Origin: Chlorobiota bacterium
Lineage (GTDB): Bacteria > Bacteroidota > Ignavibacteria > OLB7
NCBI GenBank assembly: GCA_016788565.1
Contig: JAEUSP010000136.1
Location: forward strand, 1 to 64,000
DNA: 64,000 nt
Reading direction: 5' to 3'
Positions 20,458 to 51,370 of this stretch are shown piece by piece. The position numbers and the translations under genes were made by a program. Numbering within the stretch: the first letter of the stretch is position 1; each line of letters starts with the position of its first letter. A model generated the notes under the pieces. The model had not been told where the DNA came from. It searched no databases and saw nothing but the letters and a program-made list of their open reading frames with translations.

Positions 20458-20517
20458 GATGCTGATGATGACGCGGAAGCTATCGGCTGAATTTTGCTTT
20501 CTGGCAGAAGAGAAAAA

Positions 20518-20549
20518 AAGAGGAGCCACACAGCAGTGCGGCTCCTCTT
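20518..20549. terminator. Intrinsic terminator
   Basis: A 10-bp stem (20518-20527 with 20540-20549), extendable by CAC/GTG inside, lies just downstream of the minus-strand S74/T9SS gene. On the minus strand it is followed by CTTTTTTTCTC, a good U tract. Confidence 0.8.
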
Positions 20550-20577
20550 CGTGAAAATCACCGATGGAAGCGATGAA

Positions 20578-22620
20578 TTACTTCACCACAATCATCTTCT
20601 CGCTGCCAACGATTTTGCCATCGGCAACAAGGCTATAGACGTAGGTTCCTGCGCGCATTCCCTTGACGCTGATGGTCACTTTTGCGTTGCCACGGTCGGC
20701 AAGCGGGATGCGCTGAAGCTCTTTGCCGTTCACGTCGGCGATAACAATCTCACCAGCTTTGGTGGTGGTTGGCAGTGCGTAGCCGATGGTGGTTTCCTCG
20801 CTGAACGGGTTTGGCGTGTTCTGGCCAAGTGCCGCAACCGAGTTGCTGATTGGCGTGCCTGGGGCATCGGAAACACGGTTTGCGCTCAGCAACGAATCAA
20901 CCGAGTGGCGCAGGTTTTTCAGTTCGGCGATAGCGTCGGCCATCTGCTTTTTCAGGTCGTTGTTCTCGGCTTTCAGGTCGGCAACATCGCTTTTCAGCGT
21001 GCTGTTTTCGCTGTTGAGAGTTTCGATCTGCTTTTTGATGTTAGCATCTTCGGTTGCCAGCGCGCCAACTTGGGTTGTCAGGTTGCTAACGTTGCTTTTG
21101 ACTTCGTTGACATCGTTTTTCAGGTTGGTCACTTCGGTCTGGTTGGTGGCAACAACGTCGCGCTGTTCGCGGATTGCCTCGGCCATCACCGGCACAAGGC
21201 CGATGTAGTTGATCCCTTTGTACTCCGTTGAGCTTTGCTCATCGGCACCGGGAACAAAGTTGGTGGTGACAAGTTCTGGGAAGACTTTCTCCACTTCCTG
21301 GGCAATGAAACCAACCTGCTTTCCGGTTGGAAGGTTCATGCCGGCGATGTCGGTCTTGAAGGTGTAGCTTTTTGGAGCAAGCTGGGAAACTTTATCCAGC
21401 ATTCCGGTCAGTGGCTCCACGTTTTCTTTCAGGCGGGCATCGGAGACGCTGCTGAGAGTTCCGGTGTATTTCAGGTTGCCGTTGGCATAGACAGCGGCGT
21501 AGTCGGCTTTTGCGTTGCTGCCGACGGTGGTTCCATACACACCATAAACCTGGCCAAGCCCGGTTCCGGTCGCGCTTCCCCACACACCGACTTTCATTCC
21601 GTTGGTGCCGGCGCCGTCGGCAATGCCGTTCACGCCACGGGTGGAGGACCAGAAATTACCGGCGGTTCCGGTTCCCGATGCGGCATAGACATCCAACTGG
21701 CTGGTTGGAGCAGTGGTGTTGATACCAACTTTGCCGCTGTTCTTCACATACACACCGTTGATCCAGTTGATCGGTTTTCCGGTGCCAAGAAGTTCGCCTG
21801 TGCGAAGAAAAATGTCGCCATCGCGGGTCATGCCGATGCTGGCGGCTTCATCTTGGGTGATGCGTTTGTCCACAAGGTCCGTGTAGGTGTTGTAGGACAT
21901 CGCCTTGTAGGCGGGATTGTTCTGGAAAGTCCAGCGGTCGCCAATCTGAAGAATTTCTTGTGGATCGCTGTTGGCGATACCGACGCGCCCTTGCGCGGTG
22001 ATGCGCATCCGTTCGGTGGTTCCGTTGGTGGTGTTCACACGGAAGCGAAGTCCGTCGTTCTGGACGGTGGTTTTCACGTCAATGAAGCCGGCTTGTGTGA
22101 TGCCGTCAACCAGCCCGCCAAAAATTCTCATGCCGTTCTGGCCGAACTCTGGCGTTCCACCGAAATAGAGGTTGCCATCGGTTGAGCCGCTGCCGGAAGG
22201 GAGCAGAACGTTGCCGTTAGCAAGGGTCAGGCGTTGGGTTGGATCCATGGTTCCGATGCCCAAGCTGCCGGCACCGGTGAAAGTGAAGCGGGGCATATTT
22301 TCCCCTTGCACCATCACAATGTAGTTGGTGTAGCTCCAGAAATCCACATCCACCAACCCAAAACGGGCTTGGCTGAATTTCAGGTAGTGGCTGGCATCCA
22401 ACGACCCGCGAAGTTTCAACGGAAAGTCGTTCATGGCCAGATCGCCCAATACATCAAGTTTGGCGATTGGATATTTACCGATACCGACTTTGCCGCCCCG
22501 CCATATCGGATCTTCCAGTGTAGCTTGGCCATCCCACTGCTGTGCACGGGCCGTGCCCGACAGAGCCAGCAGTGCCAGTGCCGATGCACCCAGCAATTGC
22601 ATGTTTCTCACGATTCGCAT
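20578..22620 (-). CDS. S74 intramolecular-chaperone (tail-fibre type) protein with T9SS sorting domain
   Basis: The 680-residue protein has a signal peptide (SGTARAQQ), then beta-rich repeats of the kind found before S74 domains (KVGIGKYPIAKLDVLGD, GSLGIGTMDPTQRLTL, GRVGIANSDPQEILQIGD, GKVGINTTAPTSQLDVYAA). The peptidase S74 motif follows (SDARLKENVEPL, residues 393-404; QVGFIAQEVEKVFPELV; INYIGLVPVMAEAI), then a long heptad coiled coil (about 483-580), and a T9SS domain (NTPNPFSEETTIGYAL ... MIVVK). S74 domains trimerise tail spikes and cut themselves at the conserved Ser; Ser393 and Lys398 are both present. It is probably a trimeric surface fibre. Upstream is a long, unannotated leader. Confidence 0.9.
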   Translation of the reverse strand: MRIVRNMQLLGASALALLALSGTARAQQWDGQATLEDPIWRGGKVGIGKYPIAKLDVLGDLAMNDFPLKLRGSLDASHYLKFSQARFGLVDVDFWSYTNYIVMVQGENMPRFTFTGAGSLGIGTMDPTQRLTLANGNVLLPSGSGSTDGNLYFGGTPEFGQNGMRIFGGLVDGITQAGFIDVKTTVQNDGLRFRVNTTNGTTERMRITAQGRVGIANSDPQEILQIGDRWTFQNNPAYKAMSYNTYTDLVDKRITQDEAASIGMTRDGDIFLRTGELLGTGKPINWINGVYVKNSGKVGINTTAPTSQLDVYAASGTGTAGNFWSSTRGVNGIADGAGTNGMKVGVWGSATGTGLGQVYGVYGTTVGSNAKADYAAVYANGNLKYTGTLSSVSDARLKENVEPLTGMLDKVSQLAPKSYTFKTDIAGMNLPTGKQVGFIAQEVEKVFPELVTTNFVPGADEQSSTEYKGINYIGLVPVMAEAIREQRDVVATNQTEVTNLKNDVNEVKSNVSNLTTQVGALATEDANIKKQIETLNSENSTLKSDVADLKAENNDLKKQMADAIAELKNLRHSVDSLLSANRVSDAPGTPISNSVAALGQNTPNPFSEETTIGYALPTTTKAGEIVIADVNGKELQRIPLADRGNAKVTISVKGMRAGTYVYSLVADGKIVGSEKMIVVK

Positions 22621-49110: not shown

Positions 49111-49683
49111 GTGGCAGCAACGGCAACGTATCCAACCAAAGCTCAGCACGGCGCAAGCGACAAGGACGACGAGGTTCTTGTTGAGCGGATTCGTGCTGGG
49201 GATCATGCGGCCTTTGCCACACTGTTCCAGAAATACAAAACAGGGATTTACCGTTTCTGCCTGCTGATGTTGGGGGAATCCCAAGCTGCCGAAGACATCT
49301 ACCAGGACATCTTCCTGAATTTCTACAGCACCTGCCGCCAGGGGCAGCCAATCCGCAACGCGCGCCACTACCTGTTTGGCGCGGCCCGAAACCGCTGCTT
49401 GCGGCAACTGCAAATTTCACGAAGAATGGAGCCGTTGCCAGACTTTGAGACGTTGGAGTATGCCACCGATGAACGGGAGGCCGAGATCAAAGTGCAGCTG
49501 GACGAAGCCTTGCAGCGGATTAACCCGGTCTATCGGGAAGCCTTCCTGTTGTTCGAGCTGGAGGACTACTCATACGAAGAAATTGCTGCCCAGCTTGAGG
49601 TCACGCGCGAGGTGGTGCGGAACCGAATTTACCGGGCAAAGCAGGCGTTGCAGAAGATTTTGCGGAAATCGCTGGGGGAGTAG
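49111..49683 (+). CDS. ECF-type RNA polymerase sigma factor
   Basis: A GTG start at 49111 has AGGAG at 49098-49102. The 190-residue protein has sigma-2 (LVERIRAGDHAAFATLFQKY, YRFCLLMLGESQAAEDIYQD) and sigma-4 (LDEALQRINPVYREAFLLFE, YSYEEIAAQLEVTREVVRNR, IYRAKQALQKIL) with a short linker, as usual for ECF factors. Such factors direct polymerase to stress or envelope genes and are held by a membrane anti-sigma partner; the next gene, 61 bp on, has that position. Confidence 0.93.
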   Translation: MAATATYPTKAQHGASDKDDEVLVERIRAGDHAAFATLFQKYKTGIYRFCLLMLGESQAAEDIYQDIFLNFYSTCRQGQPIRNARHYLFGAARNRCLRQLQISRRMEPLPDFETLEYATDEREAEIKVQLDEALQRINPVYREAFLLFELEDYSYEEIAAQLEVTREVVRNRIYRAKQALQKILRKSLGE

Positions 49684-49744: not shown

Positions 49745-51109
49745 ATGACCATACAAGAACAGATTATCGCACTGCTGAACGGTGACCTTACCAACCAACC
49801 GGAGGCTGCCGAACTGCTGCACGTGCTGTCGGTCTCTCCCGAGAAGCAGGCATTGCTGATCGAGCAGATTCGGATGGCGCGTGGATATGCCAATCTGCGG
49901 GCCAACCTAACCCCGCCCCCCGCTGCCGATGCCGCAATTCTGCAAGGGCTTGCGGGGATTGATGCAGCGATTGGCGCGCCGGTTGTGGCTCCAACTCTAT
50001 CCCCAACTCCATCTACACTTCCGGCAAATTCTTCGGCTTCGGTTGCTTCTTCGTTATCGTGGTATTCACGGCCTTCCATCCGTGCGGTCGCGGCCAGCTT
50101 GCTGCTTGTTGCTGGCGTTGGGATTGGCTATCTGCTCTTTCACCGTACGGATGCCACAATCGCTGAATCTGCTTCCGGCCAATCGGGGGCGCAGGTGCAA
50201 CTGCAAACGGGGGGTGATGGAGTTTCGCAAGCCGATTCGGCGGCGATGCTTCGGGGATATGTCGGCCAACTTCAACAACAGCTTGCCACGGCTAACCAGA
50301 ATTACGGCGTTGCGCTTGCGCAGATAGAATCGTTGCGGAATCGCCCAACACAAACCCGCACCATCACCCTGCGCAACATCGTGCACGACACCGTGCACGA
50401 CACCGTCCTGATTGCCGCCACCCCGCCAGCCGCAATGGCTACGGCTGATGTTTCCGGCGGCGTTGATAGTTCTTCAGCAGTTCAGCCGTTATCGTTGCAT
50501 GGGCCGTCGCATCCGGCGATTGTGTTGGATAGCCTGATGCTGATCAATGCCCCGGCGATTGCGTTGCGCTCACCCTCGGTGGCTTCGCAGGGGGACGCCG
50601 CAAGCAAGCACCGCTGGCAGGTGGGGTTGCGGAATCACTTCAGAATGTCGTTGCCGAAGATTGAGGGGCTGCCAAACCTTCAGAACACCTTAACCGACCG
50701 CGAAGGCTTCATCAGCTACGCAATGCAGAACCAGCAGGGATTGCCGCAACTGAACATTGGCGCGGCTGTGGGGGAGACTCAGTTCGGGTTGATGTACCAC
50801 ACCAACACTGGCGGCGCGCAAACCGACACGGTATTTCTCACCACACCAATTCTGAACTATGGCCGGCTTTGGGTTGCCCCAACGTTGCTCACCATTGGCG
50901 AACATCTGAGTGCTTCGGTGGAGCTTGGCGGCGGCGGAACGGAGATCGGGCCGTTTGGCACTGCGGGCGTAGCAATGGAGTATCAAGCTGGGGAGCGAGC
51001 CACGTTGCACGCCGGGCTTGCCTCCTGGTTTTTGTGGACTGCATTCCGCGACCAACTCTACACCAGCACCAATCTGAACGGCTCAATCGGCATCGCTTTC
51101 CGCTGGTGA
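49745..51109 (+). CDS. Putative membrane-spanning sigma-factor regulator with barrel-like C-terminus
   Basis: The 454-residue protein has a cytoplasmic N-terminal helical part (residues 1-50, MTIQEQIIALLNGDLTNQPE), a Pro/Ser/Thr-rich linker, one transmembrane helix (112-132), a coiled-coil-like stretch (SAAMLRGYVGQLQQQLATAN), and a beta-rich C-terminal region (about 290-454) that ends GSIGIAFRW, with alternating hydrophobic strands and a terminal aromatic as in outer-membrane barrels. Position after an ECF gene and the 1-TM topology suggest an anti-sigma factor, but no ZAS zinc motif is seen. The combination with an outer-membrane-like tail is atypical. Confidence 0.65.
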   Translation: MTIQEQIIALLNGDLTNQPEAAELLHVLSVSPEKQALLIEQIRMARGYANLRANLTPPPAADAAILQGLAGIDAAIGAPVVAPTLSPTPSTLPANSSASVASSLSWYSRPSIRAVAASLLLVAGVGIGYLLFHRTDATIAESASGQSGAQVQLQTGGDGVSQADSAAMLRGYVGQLQQQLATANQNYGVALAQIESLRNRPTQTRTITLRNIVHDTVHDTVLIAATPPAAMATADVSGGVDSSSAVQPLSLHGPSHPAIVLDSLMLINAPAIALRSPSVASQGDAASKHRWQVGLRNHFRMSLPKIEGLPNLQNTLTDREGFISYAMQNQQGLPQLNIGAAVGETQFGLMYHTNTGGAQTDTVFLTTPILNYGRLWVAPTLLTIGEHLSASVELGGGGTEIGPFGTAGVAMEYQAGERATLHAGLASWFLWTAFRDQLYTSTNLNGSIGIAFRW

Positions 51110-51175
51110 TACGGCCATTATGGGGCGCACCGAAAAGCCCCACCGTTACATCTGCAAATTTATTTTTGCAAAGGG

Positions 51176-51207
51176 TTGCTTTTCGCATTCCGCCGCCATT
51201 ATATTTG
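51176..51207 (+). promoter_or_regulatory. Bacteroidota-type promoter (TTG, 21 bp, TATATTTG)
   Basis: TTG at 51176-51178 and TATATTTG at 51200-51207 match the -33/-7 consensus with a 21-bp spacer. Transcription would begin near 51213, right before the hairpin series. Confidence 0.6.
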
Positions 51208-51212
51208 CCACC

Positions 51213-51370
51213 GAAGAATCCGGGGCACCAACCCCCGGCCTTCGTTCGGGACTTTAGAGTTTGGGGTGAGCTCTCTAGTCCTTTGGGAACTATACTGTGT
51301 GGGGTGAGCGGTATAGTTCCGTTTTTTTCAGAGTAGCATCGCTATCGCAGCGGTGCTACTCTCTTTTTTA
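51213..51370 (+). ncRNA. Candidate structured small RNA or gatC leader with repeated hairpin loop
   Basis: Four hairpins follow the promoter. H1: CCGGGG/CCCCGG (51220-51238). H2: GGACT/AGTCC (51249-51253 with 51277-51281) plus AGAG/CTCT. H3: GGAACTATAC/GTATAGTTCC (51286-51320), followed by seven T. H4: AGAGTAGCA/TGCTACTCT (51330-51362), followed by a run of T. H2 and H3 show the identical 10-nt loop sequence TGGGGTGAGC (51262-51271, 51300-51309) on stems of different sequence, as expected for a conserved, functional motif. H3 and H4 look like intrinsic terminators. The unit may be an independent sRNA or a terminating leader of gatC, 49 bp on. I match it to no known riboswitch. Confidence 0.5.

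Follow-up and report, generated by a model that had tools for sequence, protein, structure and literature searches.

In the window, that is, the whole 64,000-nt stretch of DNA analysed here, the segment upstream of gatC probably contains a gene for a small RNA (sRNA) of about 117 nt, a member of a new multicopy family that would act in trans through pairing of its loops with a few mRNAs. We assign this reading, drawn from sequence comparison, a probability of roughly 60%. Action in trans by way of the loops is indicated by stems that change while the loops stay constant, by a promoter and terminator belonging to the RNA itself, and by copies that lie at unrelated places. The family is new, but its kind is known, namely the multicopy, loop-displaying sRNAs. 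The genome of the window has one gene for the sRNA, with a doubled loop, and the element is composed as follows.

51153 to 51170, no strand assigned: inverted repeat TGCAAA-N6-TTTGCA, a possible operator that abuts the -33 element on its upstream side
51176 to 51207, plus strand: promoter of the Bacteroidota sigma-A type, with TTG at 51176-51178 separated by 21 bp from TATATTTG at 51200-51207
51212 to 51244, plus strand: hairpin H1, with the 7-nt loop CACCAAC at 51226-51232
51248 to 51282, plus strand: hairpin H2, an extra hairpin with the terminator-type loop, found only in the window's genus; conserved loop UUUGGGGUGAG at 51260-51270
51286 to 51328, plus strand: hairpin H3 (stem-loop 51286-51320, conserved loop UGUGGGGUGAG at 51298-51308) followed by T7 at 51322-51328
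51330 to 51369, plus strand: hairpin H4 (51330-51362) followed by T6, a second, back-up terminator

Both boxes of the promoter-like pair claimed in a preliminary description of this DNA, together with their spacing, can be read directly from the sequence. Because the Bacteroidota -7 box is counted as -12 to -5 (PMC9723704), the predicted +1 falls on the opening base of H1, at about 51212. Folding places the four hairpins reported 3′ of the promoter between 51212 and 51362, and the T runs at the ends of H3 and H4 are present as described. H3 with its T7 run is the first predicted Rho-independent terminator, which would set the 3′ end and yield an RNA of about 117 nt. The minimum free energy of the element is -75.1 kcal/mol, compared with -48.7 ± 3.7 kcal/mol in dinucleotide shuffles (z = -7.15, 0/200). 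In addition, H2 and H3 do combine unrelated stems with a common loop: TGGGGTGAGC occurs only at 51262 and 51300 in the window, for which 0.20 sites are expected, and 12 times genome-wide, compared with 4 for the reversed control. The loop had been called an identical 10-nt sequence; it is indeed shared, but comparison across relatives gives a conserved loop of 11 nt (UnnGGGGUGAR), and the C that ends the 10-mer belongs to the stem as its closing base. Other genomic copies of TGGGGTGAGC were discarded as relatives, none of eight folded contexts placing it in a comparable hairpin. A search of the same genome for CACCAA followed by GGGGTGAG gave 19 matches, from which the covariance model introduced below recovered only the one at the element.

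Comparison with a second genome of the same genus (G001) is best explained by selection on the element. In G001, too, the locus is flanked by this upstream ORF on one side and gatC on the other, and positions 51240-51324 are identical there, an 85-nt run that is the longest across the aligned 2.8 kb. By comparison, identity in the upstream ORF is 85% as a whole and 75% at third codon positions. The upstream intergenic DNA is also 75% identical. H2, H3 and H4 are each 100% identical (36/36 for H4, a hairpin that was not seen among the sister-genus copies described below). H1 has six differences, which leave its loop CACCAAC unchanged and include one compensated pair, G-C to A-U (CCGGGG/CCCCGG to ACGGAG/CTCCGA in G001). 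The TTG, TATATTTG and their spacing are all conserved in G001, and TGCAAA-N6-TTTGCA is kept despite the roughly 75% identity of the intergenic DNA around it.

Five genomes of one taxonomic family were searched, namely that of the window (G000), G001, two from a sister genus (G002 and G004) and G003. A covariance model (R1) built from seven sequences finds 14 loci in four of them, with per-genome E values between 2.9e-11 and 2.4e-23. G000 and G001 have a single locus apiece, G002 has five and G004 seven. No locus was found by the model in G003. The further sister-genus copies were first indicated by BLAST matches. Three G002 copies lie upstream of gatC and two at C10:206770-207192, while G004 has one at gatC and six at C16:189523-194030. 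The G004 version upstream of gatC is shorter and consists of the hairpin with the CACCAA loop and a single terminator hairpin, the stem of which is wholly different and the loop of which reads UAUGGGGUGAG.

Beyond these genomes, no more loci with the loops were found among 294 genomes of the class and 395 of the phylum (overlapping draws). Searches of more than 40 genomes used stricter filters, so diverged members could be missed. A GTDB-wide pattern scan gave none in unrelated genomes; of seven stretches that it returned, five come from the same genomes or very close ones and two look like chance matches. No copy was found in viral contigs, phages or plasmids. Weak matches of the model in the class and phylum were rejected as ordinary terminators or chance stretches that lack the loops, as was a strong ordinary terminator on the minus strand of the window (20514-20586, GAGGAGCCGCAC...), which reaches 26.7 bits and lacks both loops. 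Judged by the genomes searched, this distribution is best explained if the sRNA family is confined to a single taxonomic family of uncultured bacteria from the Chlorobiota group. Its known members come from four genomes, some or all of which are metagenome-assembled.

The loops are the constant parts of these RNAs. CACCAA lies in the loop of the H1-type 5′ hairpin at all 14 loci, and each of the 16 terminator-type hairpins has the 11-nt loop UnnGGGGUGAR with GGGGUGA invariant, on nine distinct stems that share a mean identity of about 54%. In the window's genus, the UnnGGGGUGAR hairpin is duplicated (H2 and H3) and the H4 terminator is added. The two G-rich loops had been proposed as the recognition part; the equally invariant CACCAA loop of H1 had been overlooked, and the element, being multicopy, had been underestimated.

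The stems are maintained by compensating changes. When the 12 copies of the sister genus are aligned by sequence only, 12 of 22 pairs prove to have changed on both sides (0/500 shuffles), including 4/6 pairs in the 5′ hairpin (helix 2) and 8/12 in the terminator-type hairpin (helix 3), the latter being 100% paired. Standard pairs fill 95.1% of pair cells in this alignment, compared with 31-48% when the partner is slid, a control biased in the structure's favour because the structure was derived from these same sequences; the double-sided changes are not accounted for by that bias. For both genera together, the figures are 11 pairs and 96.1% paired. The search of relatives with a covariance model, suggested in the preliminary description, thus found constant loops on compensating stems, which supports the stand-alone sRNA that it had proposed. 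Terminators are common and generic ones reach 22-33 bits with the model (H3 by itself scores 33.6 bits), so adjacent terminators might share a loop by chance. That explanation is hardly credible, being already contradicted by the comparative data, with 14 loci that have both loops, covariation and promoters.

The surroundings of the copies bear on whether the RNA acts in cis. The element lies upstream of gatC in G000, G001, G004 and G002, as would suit a leader or attenuator of gatC, which had been offered as the other possible role. This role is highly unlikely because 8 of the 12 sister-genus copies do not adjoin gatC (six at G004:C16 and two at G002:C10). Tandem arrays also disfavour it, as do a promoter-like box for each copy and a terminator in nearly all of them, and no alternative antiterminator pairing is predicted. 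Intrinsic terminators are present in nearly all copies; at C16:193951-194030 in G004, however, the T run has decayed (TTCATATAT), and termination of this copy may be poor.

In the sister genus, GGGAAC-N18-GTATTC precedes 12/12 copies at exact spacing. Elsewhere in G002 and G004, only seven further pairs of GGGAAC and GTATTC stand at N15-20, six of them at other spacings; none of the three of these that were read precedes such an RNA. Many ECF sigma factors use a -35 element of the GGGAAC type. In G000 and G001, a housekeeping-type promoter stands in place of this box. Neighbours of the copies include gatC, a response regulator and a heptosyltransferase nearby, and a T9SS-type protein alongside. 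In the window, an ECF sigma factor gene (49111-49683) is found upstream of the sRNA, and a gene for a 454-aa protein with no Pfam match, possibly an anti-sigma or membrane protein, lies directly upstream (49745-51109); the latter is in the same place in G001. The six G004 copies (L087:3524-8031, the same as G004:C16:189523-194030) lie on either side of the gene for a 935-aa protein of secreted type that has a FlgD-like domain at its C-terminus, and a 408-aa integrase-like ORF with no Pfam match adjoins them. This six-copy region may be a duplicated island.

Our proposal for function is that transcription would start from a regulated promoter, ECF-sigma-like in the sister genus and of housekeeping type in the window's genus, and that the two loops would then be displayed as pre-formed seeds for short pairing in trans with a few target mRNAs. 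The partner of CACCAA(C) would be (G)UUGGUG, and that of GGGGUGA(G) would be (C)UCACCCC. The dose could be raised either by the loop repeat within one RNA (H2 and H3) or by many gene copies, as in the sister genus. We would rank mRNA pairing first among the mechanisms, as it is well documented for such RNAs (PMC4132741, PMC11697453, PMC8295292). Around the approximate starts of 552 genes called in 0.74 Mb of G004, loop complements showed no clear enrichment, which speaks against a broad mRNA-binding role, although a handful of targets would stay invisible in such a sample. Because this start-site analysis named no target, we infer the mRNA-pairing step.

A protein partner may also be involved. 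Hfq (PF17209) was not found in the five genomes, whereas five control genomes were positive, and CsrA was likewise not detected in the five genomes while its controls were positive. RRM proteins are encoded by all five. Since Hfq was not detected, one of the small RRM proteins is a possible partner of the sRNA. Such a protein could instead be the direct ligand, with the RNA acting as a decoy in which repetition of the loop and multiplication of the gene titrate an RNA-binding protein in the manner of CsrB/RsmZ. This is a serious rival, if a rather unlikely one, as loop invariance suits a protein ligand as well as pairing, a loop of exactly 11 nt is retained on unrelated stems, and the loop is doubled in the window's genus and the gene multiplied in the sister genus, with RRM proteins available in each genome. 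However, CsrA was not detected and the loops have no GGA, each RNA displays one to three loops instead of many, and two different loops would need two sites or two proteins. More speculative still, and improbable in our estimate, is a lineage-specific sRNA system in which CACCAA and UnnGGGGUGAR, two different invariant motifs of which one lies within the terminator, would together serve as a dual recognition module, bound either by a dedicated RNA-binding protein or by a site on the ribosome. As part of this idea, the sister-genus promoter, being nearly exclusive to the sRNA, would point to a sigma factor that mainly makes one multicopy sRNA.

The loops could also be constant through binding each other. 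CACC of the H1 loop is complementary to GGUG of GGGGUGA, both are invariant, and a 4-bp kissing contact (duplex about -6.0 kcal/mol) would make the RNA compact. We consider this quite unlikely: the contact accounts for only 4/6 and 4/7 of the invariant bases, the window's genus has two G loops for one C loop, and with both sides invariant there is hence no supporting covariation. Alternatively, GGGGUGA could mimic a Shine-Dalgarno sequence and direct the RNA to the ribosome, pairing with the 16S 3′ end (UCACCUC) over 7 bp, including one G-U, at about -11 kcal/mol against the standard anti-SD. This is very unlikely, as GAGGUGA would pair better and yet G is invariant at that position, and CACCAA is left unexplained. 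The usual 16S rRNA 3′ end GTTGGATCACCTCCTTT was not found by pattern in the G000, G001, G002 and G004 assemblies, in which the rRNA is missing or its end differs.

Chlorobi-1 has a layout of stem-loops plus a terminator. Both it (RF01696, Weinberg et al. 2010, PMC2864571) and the present element are structured RNAs predicted in Chlorobi, but it does not match the window element at E<=10. Consistent with the earlier remark that no described family has this layout, Rfam 15 returns nothing over the element at E<=10 except chance matches of 15.3 and 11.3 bits, no sister-genus copy (L087, L090) reaches a gathering score, and no Rfam 15 gathering threshold is reached, including those of Chlorobi-1 and Chlorobi-RRM (RF01697). 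No description of the family was found in the open-access literature. Its closest parallels are multicopy trans-acting sRNAs of the LhrC and FopS type, with which it shares several copies with their own promoter and terminator (five in G002, seven in G004). LhrC1-5 of Listeria monocytogenes likewise comprises five copies at more than one locus, measures 111-114 nt, repeats its recognition motif in a stem-loop and the terminator loop, and works without Hfq (PMC4132741). However, LhrC has CU-rich UCCC motifs, shown targets and LisRK-dependent expression, whereas the loops of the present family read CACCAA and GGGGUGA, and Listeria belongs to an unrelated lineage. FopS/GibS of Bacteroides thetaiotaomicron is also a large paralogous sRNA family with intrinsic terminators, from the wider Bacteroidota/Chlorobiota, and the partner of FopS is the RRM protein RbpB (PMC11697453). 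The FopS seed lies in a single-stranded 5′ stretch, whereas the present RNAs begin with a hairpin and have their constant parts in the loops. RepG of Helicobacter pylori uses its terminator loop as a pairing site, a C/U-rich loop on a G repeat (PMC8295292), so the site here has the opposite base composition; in addition, RepG is not described as a tandem family.

Hardly any work has addressed post-transcriptional control in this branch, in which neither Hfq nor CsrA was detected here. In such a compact, strongly conserved multicopy sRNA, the invariant loops offer a handle for fishing out a protein partner and targets, and GGGAAC-N18-GTATTC, a box nearly exclusive to this RNA, would be of use in finding its sigma factor.

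Two further observations concern similar or identical sequences. G000:C75:37452, C80:66285 and C133:46498 have a similar CACCAA(A/T)(A/G)TGAGGCAACCAGCA...TTGGGAGAGGGC(A/G)GGGGGTGAG, which is unrelated to the sRNA and looks like a dispersed repeat. The copy in JADZEY010000021.1 (L094), titled Armatimonadetes bacterium SJ842, reads the same as that of G001 over the printed stretch, and the phylum in that title is probably wrong.
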